Positions 24,040 to 55,209 of a DNA stretch of 64,000 nt are shown here, piece by piece. The translations under genes and the position numbers were made by a program. Source of the stretch: Acidobacteriaceae bacterium (lineage in GTDB: Bacteria > Acidobacteriota > Terriglobia > Bryobacterales > Bryobacteraceae); NCBI GenBank assembly GCA_019240405.1, contig JAFAYL010000029.1:1-64000 (forward strand), written 5' to 3'. Each line of letters starts with the position of its first letter. Within the stretch, counting starts at the first letter, position 1. The notes under the pieces are model-generated. The model was not told the origin of the DNA, searched no databases, and worked only from the letters and a program-made list of their open reading frames with translations.

Positions 24040-24939
24040 TTAACTGCCTATAGAGACGGGGGCTTCAGGAAAATGCTCTTCGCCCAGTCCGAATCGTGAT
24101 CGCCCGCGCCGTCCTCGATTACTGCCAGGCCATTCGAGCCGCATATCCTGCGAAACTTCGTCGAGCATGGCGAATGTCGCGACGCGCTGCTCCATCGCGA
24201 ACACCGTCACGAGCAGATTGTCGCAAAGCGCATTGATGAGGCGGGGGATGCCCGCCGTCCGCGTATGGATCTCTTCCATCAGCTCAGGCGAGAAAATCTT
24301 CTGATTCGGCATGCCCGCGCGCGCCAGCCTCGTTTCGATATAGGCTTTCGATTCCTCAGCCGTTAGAGGATTCAAGTTGCAACGGAGCACAATGCGCTGC
24401 TTTAATTGGCGCAAATCCGGAGAATCGAGCTTTCGTTCAAGCTCCGGCTGCCCGGCCAAAATGATTTGCAGCAGCTTGCCCTGCCGGTTTTCCAGGTTCC
24501 CCAACAGGCGGATCTCTTCGAGTACGTCCCAGCTCAAGTTGTGAGCCTCATCGACGATCAGGACGCACGTACGCCCGCGCTCCGTTTGCTGCAGCAATAA
24601 CGCGTTCAGCGCAAATAGAACCGCCGTTTTCGACTTTCGGTCGCAATGCAAATCGAAGTCGTATGCCATCATTTCGAAAAACTGATCCGGCGTTAATCGG
24701 GAATTGAAAATAAACGCGAACTCGATGCGCTGCGAATCCAAATAATCTCGCAGGCACTCGAGCATGGTCGTTTTGCCGGTTCCAACTTCTCCCGTCAGGA
24801 CGATAAAGCCTTTCCGGCTGCGAACCCCGTAGATTAAGTTCGCCAGCGCCTCTTCGTGCTGAGCACTCCGGTAAAGGAACTCTGGATCAGGGCTTAAGTT
24901 GAACGGATTTTCCGAAAACCCAAAATACGCCTTATACAT
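24040..24939 (-). CDS. ExeA-like AAA ATPase
   Basis: P-loop ATPase of 299 residues. The N-terminus [19 protein letters not shown] is the signature opening of ExeA/GspA-type and exosortase-associated ATPases. Walker A is GEVGTGKTT (about 51-59), Walker [13 protein letters not shown], and the sensor region [12 protein letters not shown] is present. ExeA-family proteins help assemble secretins through peptidoglycan; the exosortase-linked ones act in polysaccharide export. The peptidoglycan-binding C-terminal domain of true ExeA is absent. It could serve the glycan operon at 7-13 kb or the secretion operon at 47-55 kb. There is no sign that it belongs to the adjacent csm operon, from which it is separated by 154 nt. 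Confidence 0.87.
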
Positions 24940-25093: not shown

Positions 25094-26236
25094 TTATTGC
25101 TCTAATTGGAGTTTGACCCAGCCCGGAAATGTGGCGGGCCGCCCTCCGGCAAAGACGATGCGGCGGGTCTTCGGAAACGGCACATTTTCGCGAACCGCTC
25201 TCGCAAAGGCCGGAACAGCTCGAAGAATCTTACGGTACGGTTCCAGCTCCGTTTGGAGAAACCCAGCTTTCGAAACGAAACCACTGCCCCAGCCCAAGCA
25301 CGCGAGACAGGCGCCTGTTGACTCCTGTGTAGATGCGAGTTGTCGCTTCAGCTCCTGAATAGCCTTGTGTACCGGCTCGAGCTGCGTTACCTCTGCATAC
25401 TGTTCCTGGATGTCGAGTTGGGCTGCGGCGTGCCGGTTTGCAGCCTCGATGATTTGCTTGGAATCAGGCACCGATCGCCAGCCGAGCGCATGTTTCAGCT
25501 CTTCGTTCTCCAGGAATTTTCGTTCTTCCCACTCTCCTTCGAAGGCTGTACTCGGAATGGCCATTTCCGCGAAAACCGGAGTAGCATCCGAAACTCGCTC
25601 GGGCGGGACGCTCCCTCGACCTGCTATTTTCCACGCAAGCTGCGGTTTGCCTGGTTGGCGCGTATCGAGTGAAGCAACGCGCGTAAGAAAAATTTTGAAC
25701 GATGAGCGCGGAACCGGCTCGCTGTCCGCGGCTGCGATAATTTTCACTTGCGACGCGCCTGCGCTTGCCTCAGCAGTATCCGCCGCTCGGCGCGAAACGC
25801 GGTCGCCTTCCAGATTGGATGCAATACGCTCCAGGGTCGCTGCGGTCCATCGCGAGAATACGAAGCTCGTCCGAAGCGCGCCTTTGAGGGCTGAGGCCGG
25901 TAGGTACGCGCCGCGATAATTCGCTGCGAAAGTCGGAATGAAAAGCGATTCCCGGGAAACGGAATTCCAGATCACCGCTGCTTCGGGATCTTCAAACGGG
26001 ATGCGCCGCTCCGAAAAATTCTGAGCAAAACCGCCCCACGATGCGAAATCCAACTTCGTTGCTTTGCGCAGTTGGGCCAAATAACCGTCGAGCCTTGGGC
26101 CGCGCGCCAGCAATTTAAAAATCCGCGGTTGATCGAGAACATTCACCTGATCCTTCCAGACCATGTAGTCGATGGGCGAGAGCTCACGTCCATCGCCCAC
26201 CAGCAAGGGCGTCAAAGCGGTGACCGTGTATTTCAT
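25094..26236 (-). CDS. csm5: Type III-A CRISPR effector subunit Csm5
   Basis: RAMP (Cas7-like) protein of 380 residues that caps the 3' end of the crRNA in Csm complexes. Evidence: an N-terminal ferredoxin-like strand with LTPLLVGDGRELSPIDYMVW, the helix AYLPASALKGALRT (glycine-containing RAMP loop) at about 110-125, and its place as the last gene after csm4. Length fits the family (about 340-390). Csm5 is needed for crRNA maturation and trimming in studied systems, working with host nucleases. Its start ATG 26236 overlaps the csm4 stop by 4 nt. Confidence 0.87.
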   Translation of the reverse strand: MKYTVTALTPLLVGDGRELSPIDYMVWKDQVNVLDQPRIFKLLARGPRLDGYLAQLRKATKLDFASWGGFAQNFSERRIPFEDPEAAVIWNSVSRESLFIPTFAANYRGAYLPASALKGALRTSFVFSRWTAATLERIASNLEGDRVSRRAADTAEASAGASQVKIIAAADSEPVPRSSFKIFLTRVASLDTRQPGKPQLAWKIAGRGSVPPERVSDATPVFAEMAIPSTAFEGEWEERKFLENEELKHALGWRSVPDSKQIIEAANRHAAAQLDIQEQYAEVTQLEPVHKAIQELKRQLASTQESTGACLACLGWGSGFVSKAGFLQTELEPYRKILRAVPAFARAVRENVPFPKTRRIVFAGGRPATFPGWVKLQLEQ

Positions 26237-27513
26237 GGTTCCGGCTCTCTGTTGTCATTCGCCGGCTGCTCCAGGTTAACGGGTTCATTCTCTTCGGCAG
26301 TCTGCTCGGGTAAGGATTCGCGCTCGGCAAATGCAGGTTCAGCTTCTGATGCTCCAGCCTCCGGCTCAGCAGCCGCAGGTTCCTCGCAGGGCCGCTCTTC
26401 GAAGTCTTTATCGGTCGGCACTTCGACCGGGCCGGCTTGAGCGAGCTCATCGCTTACAGGCAATTTCAGCGCAAGCGCCAGCCCGGACCGGTATACCGGA
26501 TGCCCAAAACCGTCCGGCGCCACGTCGACACCCGCCCCAACTGGTTCCGAGTTCGCGGCGAGCACGGATCCTTCAGAAATCATCCGAGCGAGTTTTTTTT
26601 CTATGCCGGAACCTGCCGGGCTTTCAACGCGCCCGCCGCGGACGACCGGAAGATACTGGCCACCACTCCAATCGATGCGGTCCTCCGGAGAAGGCGAATA
26701 GAGCGACAGCAACCAATACAGCGATAGCTGATTATCCGCGGAACCTGCGCGATCACCGTTTAGCGACGCTCGGCGCAGTTTCGGAAAGACCAGATGAGGC
26801 CACGTTCCCTCCCGAAATTCCGGAGCGTCCATCTGCCCCCACCCGCTACTCCGTCGCCCGCCGAATCCAGTGTCGGCGAGCAGGCGAAACGCGGCTTTTA
26901 GGCGCTCCTTCCACGCAGCTTCGGCACTCTGGTCAGCAAACCGGGCAACCGCCCAAACACCCGAGCCAGGCTCAAACTCGACACATGCACAGGCATCTGA
27001 ATGGGTTCCGCGCTTGGTCAATCGATCGACAGGAGTGAAGTTCCGCACCGTTCGTCGAAAAGGACTCGCATTCGGGCGATCTCTGCGTAACAGGCAGCCA
27101 CTTTCGGGATCGGCAATCCACTGATCGGCCAAGATCGTTTCACCCGTGAAGAGTGATTCGATTAGGCTGAGCGGTACAAACCGCGGAGCTTCCCACCGGA
27201 TCTTTGTCAGAAACGCCGGGCTGGACATCGACACCGAAGACGAAGACGGAGGCCACAGACTTGAAGGCGGGTTCGCAAACAACGTGTCGCCCTGATACGG
27301 GAATAGCGAGCTAAACGTCAGAGCTGGAATTGAGCCCCGAACCGTCGCGTCCAGCCACTCCTCCAAGAATTCCAACTGCCGCAGCGCGATGGAAACAGCG
27401 GAATAAAGCCGGTCACTGCGAAAGAGCTTGTCAACACGGGTTCGCGCGCCATCGCCCGGACCATAGCGCCACGGGCCTATGGGGCTTAGCCGAATCAAGA
27501 GCGCGGGCTGCAT
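26233..27513 (-). CDS. csm4: Type III-A CRISPR effector subunit Csm4 with acidic C-terminal tail
   Basis: RAMP protein of the Cas5 group, 426 residues, which holds the crRNA 5' tag next to Cas10. Recognisable parts: ALLIRLSPIGPWRYG at the start, RSDRLYSAV, the glycine-rich loop GFGGRRSSGWGQ and the C-terminal RAMP strand PVVRGGRVESP. Most Csm4 proteins have about 300 residues. The excess here is mainly an acidic, proline/alanine-rich tail from about residue 360 to 426, with 21 Asp/Glu against 4 Lys/Arg, which has no counterpart in the families I know. The start is 1 nt downstream of the csm3 stop. Confidence 0.87.
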   Translation of the reverse strand: MQPALLIRLSPIGPWRYGPGDGARTRVDKLFRSDRLYSAVSIALRQLEFLEEWLDATVRGSIPALTFSSLFPYQGDTLFANPPSSLWPPSSSSVSMSSPAFLTKIRWEAPRFVPLSLIESLFTGETILADQWIADPESGCLLRRDRPNASPFRRTVRNFTPVDRLTKRGTHSDACACVEFEPGSGVWAVARFADQSAEAAWKERLKAAFRLLADTGFGGRRSSGWGQMDAPEFREGTWPHLVFPKLRRASLNGDRAGSADNQLSLYWLLSLYSPSPEDRIDWSGGQYLPVVRGGRVESPAGSGIEKKLARMISEGSVLAANSEPVGAGVDVAPDGFGHPVYRSGLALALKLPVSDELAQAGPVEVPTDKDFEERPCEEPAAAEPEAGASEAEPAFAERESLPEQTAEENEPVNLEQPANDNREPEP

Positions 27514-27514
27514 C

Positions 27515-28348
27515 CTACGTCAGTTTCGACGCGAAGTCTTCAGCACTGGCGAGCTGCTGCAGCGCCGCAAGCTCCGCGCCTGAAAGCAACGCGATCTCCT
27601 CCGCGCCTTTCGAGTAGTAATCCTTGCTGCGCCAATTCAATTTGAGCCCGCTCAGACCCACGCGACCGCTGCCGCGGCTTCCTCCGCCACCGAGCGCATC
27701 GTCTTCGAGCAACCGCAGACCCTCAGCCACTCGCGCAAGAAGCGGTTTATCTTCTTCGCATAACACATCTAAGACGATCCGGAAATGAAATCGGGCGCCC
27801 GACGGAACCCGCTCCAACGTCCGAGGATTCGCCTGTGAAGTGATGCGGTCCACTGCGTTTTCGCTCTTCACCTCGGTCAATTCATCGTCCAGGTTCTCGC
27901 GCATTTGCGGCGTAATGCTATCGACCAGCAAGGGCGCATCATAAACCGTCAATCGCGCTGGTGTTGCCACGGCGCCCTCGAGTGCTTCACCACTCACTTT
28001 CTCAACGCGCCCCGAATTCCGGCCGAAGAGAACACACACATCATCGTCAGGGCGGTCGCTTTGATGAATTCGAACCTCTTGGCCCCGGCGCTTCGATAAG
28101 TAAACCAGTTCTTGGGGAGTCGCCAGCCCAAGCGTCTGCTCGAGCAAGGACCGAAGGCGTCCGCGCAGCGAGCTTCCTGGTATGTATGGAATGCCGAACG
28201 CATCCTTTACGACTGGGTTATCGGCGCCTCCGATTTCAAGCGATCCCTTTCCCGCCCCGATATGCAAGCCCGTCTGGCACTGTATCTCGCCCTCGAGCAC
28301 CAGCTTTCCAAGAAATGTCAGTTCCGTAGATGCAGTATGCGAACTCAT
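27515..28348 (-). CDS. csm3: Type III-A CRISPR backbone and target RNase subunit Csm3
   Basis: RAMP (Cas7) backbone subunit of 277 residues, present in several copies along the crRNA and cutting target RNA at 6-nt intervals. The catalytic Asp of Csm3 is conserved as Asp43 in IGGADNPVVKD. It is followed by GIPYIPGSSLRGRLR (RAMP helix), the thumb-like ENAVDRITSQANPRTLERV (about 168-187) and the glycine-rich GGGGSRGSGRVGL loop near the C-terminus. So target RNA cleavage should be intact. It sits between csm2 (39-nt gap) and csm4 (1-nt gap). Confidence 0.93.
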   Translation of the reverse strand: MSSHTASTELTFLGKLVLEGEIQCQTGLHIGAGKGSLEIGGADNPVVKDAFGIPYIPGSSLRGRLRSLLEQTLGLATPQELVYLSKRRGQEVRIHQSDRPDDDVCVLFGRNSGRVEKVSGEALEGAVATPARLTVYDAPLLVDSITPQMRENLDDELTEVKSENAVDRITSQANPRTLERVPSGARFHFRIVLDVLCEEDKPLLARVAEGLRLLEDDALGGGGSRGSGRVGLSGLKLNWRSKDYYSKGAEEIALLSGAELAALQQLASAEDFASKLT

Positions 28349-28387: not shown

Positions 28388-28960
28388 CTATTCGTTGTAG
28401 GCGATGATGGCTTCGAATAAATCGCGGAAACGCTCGTACCCGCGCGTGTCGTTTTTCCGTGTCACCTGCAGCAATAAGCGCTCGAGTGCATCCAAGCTGC
28501 GCAACGAATGCCTGGCGATGGTGTATGCGAGCCGCGCCCTCACCATCACGAACTCGTGCTGTCGCGCATTTTCAGGAGCGCGCGTCGCGCGACGGACCGC
28601 ATTGTACAAACGGCGCAGTTGGCTCTTGGTTCCCGAATCCATATCGCGCATGCGGCTTACGACGACGTGCGCTTGATTGTCGAGATACAAGCTGTCGCTC
28701 ATCAATTTGTCCAGATCGATTTCCGGAGGACCCTCGCCGCGCCGCTCGCCAGGCCCGCGCCCCCCGGCCCCGAAGCGCTCTCGCCCGCGATCCCCACCTC
28801 TGTCGCCGCGATTTTCTCCACGATCGCCCCGGCTCTCACCTCCACGCTCACCCCGGCTCTCGCCTCCACGATCATTGGGGCGCGGTCCTCCCCGGTTCTC
28901 GCGCGGCGGACGATTGTCGCTACGGCGTTCCTCGCCTTTTTTCTCTTCCACGTCAGGCAT
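28388..28960 (-). CDS. csm2: Type III-A CRISPR small subunit Csm2 with arginine/glycine-rich tail
   Basis: Small helical subunit, 190 residues. The last 110 residues (81-190) are a normal Csm2 fold: TKSQLRRLYNAVRR, then VRARLAYTIARH and the C-terminal FRDLFEAIIAYNE. The first 80 residues are a low-complexity tail with 19 Arg, 21 Gly, 2 Lys and 19 Asp/Glu, built on units like GGESRGER, RGDRGG and RGRER. Ordinary Csm2 proteins are about 120-150 residues and lack it. Csm2 lines the target RNA and occurs in several copies, so the tails would be displayed repeatedly. ATG 28960 is the only plausible start, with no start codon near the core. Confidence 0.9.
   Translation of the reverse strand: MPDVEEKKGEERRSDNRPPRENRGGPRPNDRGGESRGERGGESRGDRGENRGDRGGDRGRERFGAGGRGPGERRGEGPPEIDLDKLMSDSLYLDNQAHVVVSRMRDMDSGTKSQLRRLYNAVRRATRAPENARQHEFVMVRARLAYTIARHSLRSLDALERLLLQVTRKNDTRGYERFRDLFEAIIAYNE
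28821..28868. repeat. Two tandem 24-bp units inside the csm2 tail
   Basis: Units 28821-28844 and 28845-28868 differ at only three positions and encode GGESRGER/GGESRGDR on the minus strand. The tail probably grew by short tandem duplication. Confidence 0.8.
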
Positions 28961-28993
28961 TCGAATTCCTTTCTTCGAGCGAGCTACAGGTAG

Positions 28994-30460
28994 CTAATCG
29001 CCCGCAGCCAAGCGCGCCCATTCCAAGCCCACGCGCGCTGACGGACGCAGCTTAAAGCCCGCTCCTTTCTTGCCCATCAAATCTGTGATCACCGCGTTGC
29101 GGAGATTGCTCACTTCCTTGCCGCGCGATTGCGGAACAACCCGTGACAACCGCATATATGTGCGCCAAGGTTTATCCACACGAACCGGTTTCATTCGTCC
29201 GGCTACGCGAGCCGGGAATGCCTCCCGGTGCACCGCAGCCAAGTCGTGAATGTACTCCGGTTGATAGCCGAACTCCTCGACAAGTCGCATGAGATCGCCT
29301 TTCAACTGTGCAGCATCGCGCATGCGCTTCCATTCGAGCGCCCGTCCAAACAGTTGAAACACGCCGGCTTCCATTGCTTTTGCTGCGCGTAACTGGATTC
29401 CAGCGTCTTCAAAAACTGCTGCTAGCGGCGTTTCGTTTTCCGGCGCAATCGCAAGCGCCATGCTCACTGTTTTGCCCTCGAGACCCGCAAATGACGCAAA
29501 ATGTTCTTCGGCAAACTTTTCGAACAGCCGCTGCAATTCGAGAGCCAGCTTCAGGAGCGCGTCCCACGTCCCGACGACCGCGAAATCATCGCCGCCACGA
29601 TAAACAATCGTCACTTTCCGCCAAAAATCTCCGAGCGTGCAAAGCAGAGAAAGCTCGCCGGCGAAAAACTCCTTGAACAACTCGGAGAGATGAATATGCT
29701 CTTCTATCGAGGCGGTCCCTTTCAAGCGAGATTCAAACCGGTCGACATCGCCGCGCAGCACTCCCCATCGGGGCGCTCCATCAGCTCGCTCCGCCAACTC
29801 TTCGAGAGATGCGGGCCGGATGCCGCTTTCATCCATCGCAAACCGGCGCGGGAAGAGAATCGTGTCGTCGCCACTCTCGGATCGATCGCCTAAACCCCAC
29901 AAATGCTGGCCTTCATCCCACGTCAAATGCGCCGGCTCGCCGGCAGACCAGCCGACTTGTTTTGCTGTTGGCAAACCCTGAGCGAAATCTCCGAAGTGGT
30001 GATCGGCGCCGCTGTCCATGGCGGGTGAAAATGGCGCAAAGAAATCAGGGCCGGAACCGGCTGCGAGCGGCGCTGAATTCTTGGCTAGCAGCGCATCGTC
30101 GAGCCGCTTTCGCGCAACGGGCCAAGCGCCGAGATTCTCCGTGCTCGCCCAGATCAGCCGCAGTGTGTTGCCTGACATCGCCGCGACAGCCTCAGCGGCC
30201 CGCATCAAAAAATCGTTAGCCCTTGGAATATCCTCTTCAGCCAGGACGAGGAGAAATTGTTCAGCGCTGCTCGATCCGAGCAGCATCCGCGACAACTTCA
30301 GTTCGCTGAGCAATGCTCTCGGCAGAACCTCGCAATAAAGACTCAGCCATGCCGCGCGCCCGATAAAGTCTGACGTCTCGTCCGGACCACCCCGCGCATG
30401 AGCAACGAGGAAGTCTTCCGCACCGAGCAATTGAGCTTGCAAAAAAACTTGCAGCGACAT
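28994..30460 (-). CDS. csm1: Cas10/Csm1 without HD domain, GGDD cyclase intact
   Basis: Large subunit of the type III-A effector, 488 residues against about 750-850 for usual Csm1. It begins directly with a Palm1-like domain (about 40-135: LSRMLLGSSSAEQFLLVLAEE, RLIWAST). Palm2 has WGVLRGDVDRFESRLKG (Asp238, Asp240) and the cyclic-oligoadenylate motif YRGGDDFAVVG (GGDD at 289-292), then a helical D4 domain. No HD nuclease motif and no CxxC zinc pair is present. An in-frame stop (TGA) lies three codons upstream of ATG 30460, so the short N-terminus is not a start-calling error. It should make cyclic oligoadenylate but not cut ssDNA with an HD site. First gene of the operon. Confidence 0.9.
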   Translation of the reverse strand: MSLQVFLQAQLLGAEDFLVAHARGGPDETSDFIGRAAWLSLYCEVLPRALLSELKLSRMLLGSSSAEQFLLVLAEEDIPRANDFLMRAAEAVAAMSGNTLRLIWASTENLGAWPVARKRLDDALLAKNSAPLAAGSGPDFFAPFSPAMDSGADHHFGDFAQGLPTAKQVGWSAGEPAHLTWDEGQHLWGLGDRSESGDDTILFPRRFAMDESGIRPASLEELAERADGAPRWGVLRGDVDRFESRLKGTASIEEHIHLSELFKEFFAGELSLLCTLGDFWRKVTIVYRGGDDFAVVGTWDALLKLALELQRLFEKFAEEHFASFAGLEGKTVSMALAIAPENETPLAAVFEDAGIQLRAAKAMEAGVFQLFGRALEWKRMRDAAQLKGDLMRLVEEFGYQPEYIHDLAAVHREAFPARVAGRMKPVRVDKPWRTYMRLSRVVPQSRGKEVSNLRNAVITDLMGKKGAGFKLRPSARVGLEWARLAAGD

Positions 30461-30593
30461 GATACCGGGTCATAGCGGCCCGCAAACAACGGCGGGCTGA
30501 GCGTAAAACCGCCGAGAACGCTTTTCAGACTAACACAGTGATTCGGTCGGCTTCCGTTAATGCTTTTAGGGGTAAGGATAGTCTACTGTTCGT

Positions 30594-52830: not shown

Positions 52831-53603
52831 ACGGCACAACCCAGCCGAGGATTTTCGGGCTCCGCATCGGCCTGGATCCCAAGTTCATCGTTGTTGGATT
52901 GATCGCAGTCGCCGCCCTGCTGTTTTGGTACAACTCGCGGAGCGATGTAGAAACGCCCTCGCGCCCTGCTGCTGGCGGCGGTTCTTCCGAAACGAGCGCG
53001 GGAGGCGTGACCGCGACACGCGCTCCAGGCAATGCGCTGACTGGACGCGGAACCACTCCCGCCGCAGCGCGCCGCGCGCAAAGGACAAACGATCATTCGA
53101 CATTGCGCATGCGCGCCATCGATGCGACTCACGGCGATATCGATCCGACCCTGCGCCTCGATTTACTCGCTCGACTTCAATCCCTTCAAGAGGGCGGAAA
53201 CAGCCGCAATCTTTTCGAAATGGGTGCCGCGCCCGCGCCCGGAATGACCGACGATCAAGGCCGCCCAATTAAACATCCGATCATCCCGCCGAAGCCGATT
53301 CCGCAGCCGCCTGTTATACCCGGCAGCGCGAACGATCCAATGGCGGATGTCAACATTCCGCTGAAATATTACGGTTTTTCGAAACCGGTCGGCAAGCCGC
53401 AAAGCAATCGCGGATTCTTTCTAGACGGCGACAACATTCTCGTTGCTTCTGAAGGCGAGCTTGTGAAACAGCGATACTTAGTCGTGGAACTGACTGCAAC
53501 CAGCGCGAGATTGGAAGATACTCAAGTGAAAAAGGGCAAGACGCTGCCTATTGTTCCGGAAAACAAAGAAGCCTCAGTCGCCCAATCATCGCCGGATGAG
53601 TAA
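52827..53603 (+). CDS. Membrane-anchored protein at the PilP/GspC position
   Basis: A 258-residue protein with one helix at about 20-38 (FIVVGLIAVAALLFW), a disordered Gly/Thr/Arg-rich linker (45-90), a helical segment (LRLDLLARLQSLQEGGNSRNLFEMG) and a C-terminal beta domain with IPLKYYGFSKPVGKPQSNRGFFLDGDNILVASEGELVKQRYLV. The combination of RNLFEMG and a small beta domain resembles the homology region of GspC/PilP, which links the platform to the secretin. I name it by position and shape, not by clear homology. Overlaps the pilO-like stop by 4 nt. Confidence 0.75.
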   Translation: MNGTTQPRIFGLRIGLDPKFIVVGLIAVAALLFWYNSRSDVETPSRPAAGGGSSETSAGGVTATRAPGNALTGRGTTPAAARRAQRTNDHSTLRMRAIDATHGDIDPTLRLDLLARLQSLQEGGNSRNLFEMGAAPAPGMTDDQGRPIKHPIIPPKPIPQPPVIPGSANDPMADVNIPLKYYGFSKPVGKPQSNRGFFLDGDNILVASEGELVKQRYLVVELTATSARLEDTQVKKGKTLPIVPENKEASVAQSSPDE

Positions 53604-53625
53604 CTCTGGAATCAACGAGCGAAGC

Positions 53626-55209
53626 ATGAAACCTGAATCCAATCGCTACCCAGCCCAGCGAGGGTCCGCGCTGTTGATCGTCTTTCTGTTCGCGGCGTTC
53701 GTTGCCATCATGCTTTATCGCGAAATGCCGGTGGCCGCTTTCGAAGCCAAGCGTCAGAAAGAAGAGACGCTCATAGACCGCGGAGAACAGTACAAGCGCG
53801 CGGTCAAACTGTTCTACAAGAAATTCGGAATGTATCCTGCCTCGATGGAACAGCTCGAAAACACGAACCGGCTGCGCTTCCTCCGCCATCGTTTTGTCGA
53901 TCCATTCACGGGTAAGGACGATTGGCGCCTGCTCCATGCCGGGCCAGGCGGCATGCTGATCGATTCGAAAGTTAACCCGCTCAAGAATGGACTGAATCAG
54001 AATGCTGCCGGCTTCGGTTCCGGATCCAATTCCGGCTTCGGAAGCGGGTCAGGTTTTGGCAACAACTCCGGTTTCGGCGCGGGATCGAGTTTTGGCAACC
54101 AGGGTTTCGGCAATAATCCGGCAGCCACAGCCAACACGGGATTGCAGGGCAACGGCAACGCTTCCGCAAATTCTGGATTCGGTTCGACCAATAACACCGC
54201 CGCAAATTCCGGCTTTGGAGGATTCAACAACAGCATCTCGACCTCCGGCTTCAATTCGGCGTCCGATCAGGGAACAGTTGTCGTGCCGAACATCACGCGG
54301 CGTCCGCCTGCGATCTCCTCAAGTGGCTCTCCTAGCGTGAACTCAACGCCTGAAACCGATCAAACCGCGTCCGTTGAGGGTGACCAGCAGGACCAGTCAG
54401 GGCAGTTGCAACAGAACCCTGATATGCAGCAGCCTGCAGACTCAGGCCAGCCTAACGAGCCCAACACAGACAACGGGACAACGCCTGATCAGGATTCCAA
54501 TGCCAACTTGAGCGGCGAAACACCCCAGCAGCAGATGCAGAACATGCTGCAGCGGCAGCGAATGCAGATGCAGCAAGACCAAGGGCCCGTGGACCCCAAT
54601 AATCCGCAGCAAAACATGCCGCAGCAAAATCCGATGATGCAGCGAAACCCGCTCATGCAGCAGAATTTCATCATGCGCCAGCAAATGATGCAACAGAACG
54701 CGCAAGCTCAACAAAACGCCGATGCGCAAAACCCGCAGGCGCAAGCCCCGGGCCAGATCACCGATCAGAGCGGAGCAACAGGCGGCACGCAAAATTCGTT
54801 AAACACCATCCGGCAGTTTCTTGGTACTCCTGGAAACCAGGGACAAACTTCTGGATTAAACTCGAACATTCGCGGTGGGGGTTTGGCGGGCGTCGCGAGC
54901 AAAGCTCAAGGACACGCCATTAAGGTCATCAACGACCAAGTGGACTATTCGCTATGGGAGTTTTATTACGATCCGAGCAAAGACACCAAATCAGTGATGT
55001 CGGGTGTAACGTCGGGCATGAACAACTCCAACCGGCCCTCTGGTTTTGCGAATAACCCGAACTCGACCGGTTTCTCCAATGCCAATCAGACAAACGGATT
55101 CAATCAGAATGGCTTCAACTCAAATTCCCCGGCCACCACAAGCTCCCCCAATTCGCAAACGAATCCAACTTCATCTCCAGGCAGCACGACTCAGAATCCG
55201 CCCCAGTAG
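53626..55209 (+). CDS. Pseudopilin-like protein with FG-rich and Q/N/M-rich low-complexity regions
   Basis: A 527-residue protein. The N-terminus RGSALLIVFLFAAFVAIMLYRE is a pilin-like helix without the usual GFxxxE, followed by a GspG-like helix (KFGMYPASMEQLENTNRLRFLRHRF) and DPFTGKDDWRL. Residues about 128-208 form a Gly/Phe/Ser/Asn tract with eight FG dipeptides, and 299-375 a Gln/Met/Asn tract with almost no hydrophobic aliphatic residues. A short ordered patch (AIKVINDQVDYSLWEFYYDPS) precedes an Asn/Ser/Pro-rich end. Its place at the end of the operon suggests a secreted or surface component. ATG 53626 is preferred; ATG 53596, overlapping the upstream stop, is an alternative. Confidence 0.8.
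   Translation: MKPESNRYPAQRGSALLIVFLFAAFVAIMLYREMPVAAFEAKRQKEETLIDRGEQYKRAVKLFYKKFGMYPASMEQLENTNRLRFLRHRFVDPFTGKDDWRLLHAGPGGMLIDSKVNPLKNGLNQNAAGFGSGSNSGFGSGSGFGNNSGFGAGSSFGNQGFGNNPAATANTGLQGNGNASANSGFGSTNNTAANSGFGGFNNSISTSGFNSASDQGTVVVPNITRRPPAISSSGSPSVNSTPETDQTASVEGDQQDQSGQLQQNPDMQQPADSGQPNEPNTDNGTTPDQDSNANLSGETPQQQMQNMLQRQRMQMQQDQGPVDPNNPQQNMPQQNPMMQRNPLMQQNFIMRQQMMQQNAQAQQNADAQNPQAQAPGQITDQSGATGGTQNSLNTIRQFLGTPGNQGQTSGLNSNIRGGGLAGVASKAQGHAIKVINDQVDYSLWEFYYDPSKDTKSVMSGVTSGMNNSNRPSGFANNPNSTGFSNANQTNGFNQNGFNSNSPATTSSPNSQTNPTSSPGSTTQNPPQ

Follow-up and report, generated by a model that had tools for sequence, protein, structure and literature searches.

The type III-A-derived Csm complex (Cas10–Csm2–Csm3–Csm4–Csm5) is a near-universal and highly conserved locus of the Bryobacteraceae, and its Csm2 subunit carries an arginine- and glycine-rich N-terminal tail in all 80 family proteins with a readable N-terminus (79 relatives and the window, by which we denote the whole analyzed stretch of 64 kb). 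CRISPR effectors are generally regarded as patchy and fast-evolving; this one is kept in 142 of the 148 good family genomes (at least 90% complete, at most 5% contaminated) while its cyclase motif and the gene for spacer acquisition are frequently absent. Whether it represents a vertically inherited, RNA-guided complex that binds or cleaves RNA, is decoupled from spacer acquisition and gains additional RNA contacts through its tails is, in our estimate, an evenly balanced question, and this is the reading we prefer. The operon of the window runs in the order cas10, csm2, csm3, csm4, csm5; an AAA ATPase gene comes next. The features are as follows:

28967–28972, minus strand: AAAGGA, probable ribosome-binding site directly 5′ of the ATG of the tail, as read from the sequence
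28994–30460, minus strand: cas10/csm1, 488 aa, without HD domain, GGDD motif at 29585–29596 (TIGR02578 partial, PF22335 palm2)
28388–28960, minus strand: Csm2 open reading frame, 190 aa
28721–28960, minus strand: RG-rich polyampholyte N-terminal tail of Csm2, residues 1–80 (composition, low pLDDT, tail in relatives)
28391–28720, minus strand: helical core of Csm2, residues 81–190 (PF03750/TIGR01870, Csm structural matches, 88.7% mean identity)
27515–28348, minus strand: csm3, 277 aa; the motif GGADNPVVKD contains the predicted catalytic residue (Asp43 at 28220–28222; TIGR02582, alignment with solved Csm3)
26233–27513, minus strand: csm4, 426 aa, acidic C-terminal extension at about 26236–26460 (75 aa, net −19; TIGR01903)
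25094–26236, minus strand: csm5, 380 aa (TIGR01899)
24040–24939, minus strand: AAA ATPase of the XrtA/PEP-CTERM type, just under the NCBIfam cut-off (TIGR03015)

Csm2 tail and core

Within the first 80 residues of the window's Csm2 we counted 19 Arg, 21 Gly, 19 acidic residues (13 Glu and 6 Asp) and 2 Lys, with 11 RG and 4 RGG motifs. An AlphaFold2 model calculated with 52 family sequences yielded pLDDT block means of 44–56 for these residues, so that the RG/RGG motifs are clustered in a predicted-disordered segment, the arrangement that defines RGG/RG domains. The tail has a charged fraction of 0.50, a net charge of +0.025 per residue and a kappa of 0.04, and Tandem Repeats Finder (TRF) detected a 24-nt repeat inside its coding DNA. 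Among the 72 six-frame open reading frames of at least 150 aa in the window, Csm2 was the only one containing an 80-aa stretch with at least 38 Arg plus Gly (each at least 15) and at least 15 Asp plus Glu, indicating that the R/G/acidic tail exceeds chance. A weak match of the tail to the N-terminus of uS5 (E 0.0015) was also obtained.

The helical core behind the tail was modeled with pLDDT values of 85–96. Residues 93–188 match PF03750 with an E-value of 1.5e-9, as well as TIGR01870 and six PADLOC Csm2 models. The best 21 Foldseek matches of the Csm2 model were all Csm-complex chains or Csm2, one being titled Csm2 and the others assigned by complex title and a length of 102–139; the best reached an E-value of 0.0094, and none was found at E 0.001. 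The recount, the disorder prediction and these profile and structural matches thus reproduce the initial annotation exactly in the tail composition (19 Arg, 21 Gly, 19 Asp/Glu) and agree with its disordered extension joined to a normal Csm2 core. Within the core, all 52 aligned proteins (chosen from 80) share R116, Y146 and R150 without exception, and these residues align with R96, Y129 and K133 of T. onnurineus Csm2 (ToCsm2; chain index one above the paper's numbering). According to the accessible text of PMC10289348, the latter are equivalent to R49, Y87 and R91 of SeCsm2, which contact the target RNA, with ToCsm2 Y129 and K133 sitting further off, and the R49 equivalent is needed for cleavage.

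A single scan returned 140 related stretches, of which 80 loci were kept. Together with the window these gave 81 Csm2 proteins, 80 of them readable at the N-terminus (L047 was left out owing to Ns in its tail); the loci overlap in species with the 237-genome family set described below, and the two are not independent. The 80 tails measure 36–176 aa with a median of 64.5 and contain 10–28% Arg (median 20%), 7–40% Gly (23%), 14–28% Asp/Glu (20%) and 1–9% hydrophobic residues (3%). Their median charged fraction is 0.43, the median net charge +0.020 per residue and the median kappa 0.061. The number of RG motifs ranges from 0 to 11, with at least two in 70 tails and none or one in 10, the latter being still rich in Arg and Gly. 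Arg plus Gly account for 18–56% of the whole tail, falling below 30% in 12 of the 80, where the first part was rich in Ala, Pro and Glu in those sequences inspected; over the last 40 residues preceding the core the share is 35–65% throughout. The tail is therefore a family trait and not a peculiarity of the window's Csm2, and its being unique to the window genome could be rejected: none of the 79 readable relatives lacks it, so that the observation withstands the refuting condition (relatives lacking the tail) set by the initial annotation itself. Among the matches listed from the 237-genome search, the smallest Csm2 open frame was 149 aa compared with the 110-aa core, so that each of these genomes has room for a tail.

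Outside the family, we obtained 17 Csm2 proteins from 16 Acidobacteriota genomes. These contain 0–1 RG motifs and 9–29% Arg plus Gly before the profile match, at least two RG motifs thus occurring in 0 of 17 compared with 70 of 80 inside the family. Their profile match is preceded by a polar region of 33–119 open-frame codons, part of which belongs to the core. Since these N-termini are polar and poor in RG, the tail appears to have arisen by expansion of such a region and to have become general in one family.

The initial annotation had proposed that the tail drives condensation, concentrating Csm complexes with RNA in foci. The tail is indeed R/G-rich and predicted to be disordered, and it would be multivalent if several Csm2 copies were present per complex as in other Csm complexes (Csm3n Csm2n-1 in the accessible text of PMC10289348). 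The charges in the window's tail are, however, balanced and well mixed, hydrophobic residues are few, tails are as short as 36 aa, and an acidic Csm4 tail as partner is found in only 22 of 73 family proteins. Polyampholyte theory holds that balanced, well-mixed charge favours an expanded soluble coil. With such charge patterning, and with no more than one RG motif in 10 of 80 tails, an RGG-type condensation tail is one option only; condensation by the Csm2 tail is possible but not favoured, and we consider it unlikely.

Translation from the first ATG is supported by the AAAGGA upstream of it, by the tail in 79 of 79 readable relatives and by the low dN/dS ratio of the tail. Among the closest 40 of 377 pairs, the ratio was 0.03–0.29 in 29, 0.31–0.55 in 7 and undefined in 4; these values are rough because of the low-complexity alignment and point to mostly purifying selection. 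No ATG, GTG or TTG was found in the 27-codon window around the core start in 51 of 80 genes. Such a codon is present in 29, including the window's Csm2 with Met87 as a possible start near the core. Universality, dN/dS and this start-codon survey led us to reject the tail as an artefact of start choice. Two weaker signs are an AGG motif 5′ of 75 of 80 tail starts but also of 55 of 80 core starts, and gaps between similar tails that are multiples of three in 50% (3047/6084).

The tail might also be a generic by-product, with GC-rich slippage repeats accumulating in a permissive disordered N-terminus that has no specific function. The 24-nt repeat, the polar N-termini of Csm2 outside the family and the wide range in tail length and RG number would fit such an origin. 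Its presence in every readable family protein, the scarcity of hydrophobic residues, the Arg plus Gly content of the last 40 residues, the dN/dS ratios of at most 0.29 in 29 pairs and the occurrence of such a stretch in 1 of 72 window frames argue otherwise, and we regard this explanation as improbable, slightly more so than condensation.

Distribution and conservation of the csm operon

The 110-aa Csm2 core was detected in 212 of 237 family genomes and 69 of 76 genera, and no match was obtained in 6 of the 148 good genomes; every genome among the matches listed holds a single copy. In a 60-genome subset Csm2 was found in 52, and two of the other eight contain contig-end fragments of Csm3; a weak match in G013 (E 3.2e-4, 28% identity) was not counted as an orthologue. 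PF03750 was found in 19 of 396 genomes of the phylum, 3 in the family and 16 outside. Searches with the whole Csm2 gave a match in 0 of 20 genomes from other families of the order and in 1 of 20 from other families of the class (in the tail region only), and Csm3 was found in 0 of 20 genomes from other families of the order.

Across 59 loci, the mean pairwise identity amounted to 88.7% for the Csm2 core, 75.3% for Csm3, 56.4% for Csm5, 53.3% for Cas10 and 52.0% for Csm4; the far stronger divergence of Cas10, Csm4 and Csm5 (52–56%) than of the Csm2 core counts against our preferred reading. We compared these data with aspartyl-tRNA synthetase (AspRS) in 24 genomes, the starting set of 30 having been reduced by 5 that lacked near-full genes and by G017, whose AspRS appears to be an outlier with only 48% identity to the window's enzyme. 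Mean identities were 88.2% for the Csm2 core, 77.2% for Csm3 and 74.7% for AspRS. Pairwise distances correlated with those of AspRS with r values of 0.725 for Csm3 and 0.566 for Csm2 (0 of 5000 permutations each); including G017, the values were 0.368 (0/5000) and 0.339 (49/5000), respectively. Such tracking is the pattern expected of vertically inherited genes and suggests that the csm locus is one.

All five csm genes are present in 72 of 81 loci, window included, and NCBIfam, Pfam and PADLOC identify them as the type III-A effector set. Their order, as far as the genes were found, is identical in 81 of 81 loci, some of which are truncated at a contig end. From these 81 loci, 76 Cas10, 79 Csm3, 73 Csm4, 63 Csm5 and 80 Csm2 rows entered the gene alignments, the remainder being truncated at a contig end or lacking a near-full match. 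One contig carrying the Bryobacteraceae csm operon is titled Arcobacter sp. (L110, DYJN01000052.1), suggesting a mislabelled or misbinned contig.

The window's Cas10 aligned with TIGR02578 at 133.9 bits, below the cut-off of 170, and only over positions 490–732 of 753 in the C-terminal part; its AlphaFold2 model reached a pLDDT of 88, and the top 50 Foldseek matches were all Csm complexes or Csm1. Read from stop to stop, 69 of the 74 complete Cas10 frames of the family do not exceed 530 aa and the longest reaches 664 aa; the solved full-length Csm1 chains comprise 756–816 aa. Of the five longer frames, that of L047 contains Ns and the other four have 57–111 extra N-terminal residues, which we read as probably untranslated frame. 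The frames are thus too short to accommodate an HD domain, in line with the HD-less Cas10 of the initial annotation; the pairing with an acidic Csm4 proposed alongside did not hold, as detailed below. According to the accessible text of PMC11229360, the HD nuclease occurs in 65% of III-A Cas10 proteins and is thus common but not universal.

The GGDD cyclase motif is present in the window. Of 76 family proteins, window included, 60 have it intact and 16 show an alteration, in some mild; mapped on a 68-row Csm3 tree, the motif changed at least nine times. The aspartate of the Csm3 motif GG[AS]DNPV is found in 79 of 79 proteins by alignment and in 81 of 81 by pattern, window included. This residue, Asp43 in the window, we take to be the catalytic aspartate for target-RNA cleavage. 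A C-terminal extension of at least 30 aa is present in 22 of 73 family Csm4 proteins (window included) and is acidic in all 22, and a coupling of the Csm2 tail to an acidic Csm4 as a general rule was rejected on this count. The tail lengths of Csm2 and Csm4 showed no significant correlation (rho 0.19, p 0.11). Among the 68 rows, an acidic Csm4 tail and a GGDD change occurred together in 11, the tail alone in 10, the change alone in 5 and neither in 42; on the tree, these counts go back to no more than 4 and 9 changes, respectively, so that any association would be tentative.

The AAA ATPase gene adjoins csm5 downstream and has a relative in 24 of 80 loci with a median identity of 76%; it may lie outside the Csm system. 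Elsewhere in the window, a 552-aa open reading frame (53551–55209) combines a hydrophobic segment at its N-terminus with long low-complexity stretches rich in Asn, Gln and Gly, and contains tandem repeats of 36 and 18 nt.

Guide source and function of the complex

Neither the window nor the csm loci of the 80 relatives (710,894 bases) yielded a CRISPR array, so that the operon has no adjacent array in this set; four repeat matches were rejected as tandem repeats. Likewise, no linked Cas6 or Cas1 was seen, as the only gene clusters beside csm in at least a tenth of the loci were the ATPase and overlapping frames. Per locus, the sequence 5′ of cas10 resembles that of a median of 2 among 69 others, and the sequence 3′ of csm5 that of a median of 0 among 61; the downstream similarity of the window coincides with the ATPase gene. 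About 10–80 bases 5′ of cas10 (window about 30467–30537), a stretch is similar in L031, L038 and L070 and is possibly a shared promoter. We saw no conserved guide RNA beside csm or cas6, and no Rfam family at gathering score in the window, in six Cas6 regions or in the type I-D locus of the window genome (L131).

This locus (G000 contig 9, 165000–184000) contains Cas1, Cas4, Cas10d, Cas11d, Csc2, Csc1, Cas3d and Cas6 together with an array of 20 repeats, the repeat unit containing a strong hairpin. The Cas6 encoded there is the only one detected in the window genome and lies on another contig than the csm operon. Since it adjoins the I-D array, sharing of crRNAs in trans is possible in this genome. 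A TGAAA-type array pattern, covering one repeat class only in 23 genomes, recovered the same array. The only array-like cluster in a Cas1-less genome among its matches listed (G057, contig 102) consists of near-identical 79-nt units and was rejected as a tandem repeat.

Across the family, Cas6 (PF10040) was detected in 198 of 237 genomes and 130 of 148 good ones, compared with 3 of 40 genomes from the remaining families of the order and class. Cas1 was detected in 120 of 237 and in 81 of 148 good ones. At least 61 good genomes thus contain Csm2 without a Cas1 match (142 + 67 − 148), one example being G637, which is 100% complete in 2 contigs and holds both Csm2 and Cas6. In the 60-genome set, 14 of 17 good Cas1-less genomes keep both Csm2 and Cas6, and of the 8 genomes lacking a Csm2 orthologue, 5 also contain Cas6. 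We chose 20 Cas6 regions, 14 of them from genomes without Cas1. Nineteen of these contained no array, and across all 20 the only conserved neighbours were antisense frames overlapping Cas6, in 4 regions each. In stretches fetched from 19 other family genomes (L132–L150), the Cas6-like genes are 30–63% identical and occur with and without Cas1 in the genome; no array or conserved neighbours were found in these stretches.

These data bear on whether the complex is an ordinary, unusually stable III-A immune effector that receives Cas6-processed crRNAs in trans from co-resident type I or other arrays, the tail being neutral or serving solubility. The array, Cas1, Cas4 and Cas6 of the I-D locus could make it just that in the window genome, and Cas1 is present in about half of the family (120 of 237). 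The accessible text of PMC12669027 further notes that arrays are missing from most III-B, III-C, III-E and III-F loci, and suggests recruitment of crRNAs in trans for III-G. A near-universal, single-copy (among the matches listed), AspRS-tracking locus with a Csm2 core more conserved than AspRS would nevertheless be odd for a defence system, and the at least 61 of 148 good genomes with Csm2 but no Cas1 match, G637 among them, as well as the joint retention of Csm2 and Cas6 in Cas1-less genomes, speak against it. We hold this explanation to be a real possibility, though one falling short of even.

In our preferred reading, Cas6-processed RNAs from unlinked arrays or host transcripts would be loaded into the Csm complex, and Csm3 would cut complementary RNA or the complex would hold it. 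Each Csm2 copy would contribute a disordered, charge-balanced R/G-rich tail making weak multivalent contacts near the target RNA, which might raise the local capture rate or recruit RNA-handling partners. Tail length and order would drift by slippage, with composition held by selection. Points against this reading are that no guide RNA was found for the Cas1-less genomes, that Cas6 also occurs in genomes without a Csm2 orthologue, that 6 good genomes gave no match to the Csm2 core, and that the AspRS correlations weaken once G017 is included. The retained Csm3 and Csm2 residues, the lost HD domain and the altered GGDD motif make the output look like guided RNA binding or cleavage rather than DNase activity or, in some lineages, cyclic oligoadenylate (cOA) synthesis. 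Because the complex looks fixed and highly conserved and is often found without the acquisition gene, it may have a housekeeping job in the Bryobacteraceae and not solely one in immunity. Only tentatively, and with a little less weight than the immune explanation, we propose the stronger form, a family-domesticated type III effector acting as a core housekeeping RNA-guided RNase, loaded through a stand-alone Cas6 with non-array guides or host RNAs and regulating or policing cellular RNA, with the Csm2 tails as a general RNA-capture surface. This locus allows a direct test, in soil bacteria, of whether a CRISPR effector can have a non-immune role, and the tail would offer a natural example of a disordered, RNA-binding-like segment fitted to a Csm complex.

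Comparison with known systems

The Bryobacteraceae system was absent from the literature searched, which included the accessible parts of the 2022 review PMC8730458 and left most subscription papers outside its scope. No Csm2 with such an extension was described there either, in keeping with the initial annotation, which knew of none. The main text available for the 2025 classification (PMC12669027) and the 2024 type III survey (PMC11229360) contains no mention of Acidobacteri-, Bryobacter- or Solibacter-, and an Antarctic soil study reports, in its accessible text, other Acidobacteriota CRISPR loci, with arrays (PMC11742911).

Canonical III-A systems (S. epidermidis, S. thermophilus, L. lactis, T. 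onnurineus) comprise the same five subunits, and our Csm2 and Cas10 models match Csm structures. Judged by alignment, the Bryobacteraceae complex also keeps the Csm3 aspartate and the Csm2 RNA-contact residues. Unlike in the canonical systems, no adjacent array, Cas1 or Cas6 was found, Cas10 has no room for an HD domain, the cyclase motif is altered in 16 of 76 proteins, Csm2 is tailed, and the locus is near-universal in its family. The 17 other Acidobacteriota Csm2 proteins share a homologous core and a polar N-terminus, with 9–29% Arg plus Gly compared with 18–56% in the family. RGG/RG and mixed-charge R-D/E domains are likewise R/G-rich, low-complexity and disordered, whereas the Csm2 tail has a predicted net charge near zero and sits on a CRISPR subunit.

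III-G and other array-less type III systems resemble the present locus in having effector genes without arrays, the III-G crRNAs being thought to be supplied in trans. As far as the accessible text of PMC12669027 describes it, III-G has an apparently active Cas10 HD domain, Csx26 perhaps replacing Cas11, and Cas7 aspartates that are not conserved, whereas the Bryobacteraceae complex lacks HD and keeps both Csm2 and the Csm3 aspartate. The III-A system of M. tuberculosis is structurally conserved, shows little evidence of spacer acquisition and has proposed roles beyond immunity, according to the available part of PMC13334790. It concerns one species and stresses cOA–Csm6 signalling, compared with a whole family without HD and with a partly altered cyclase motif here. 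Within the sources accessible to us, no other proposal comes closer to a III-A system serving wider roles.
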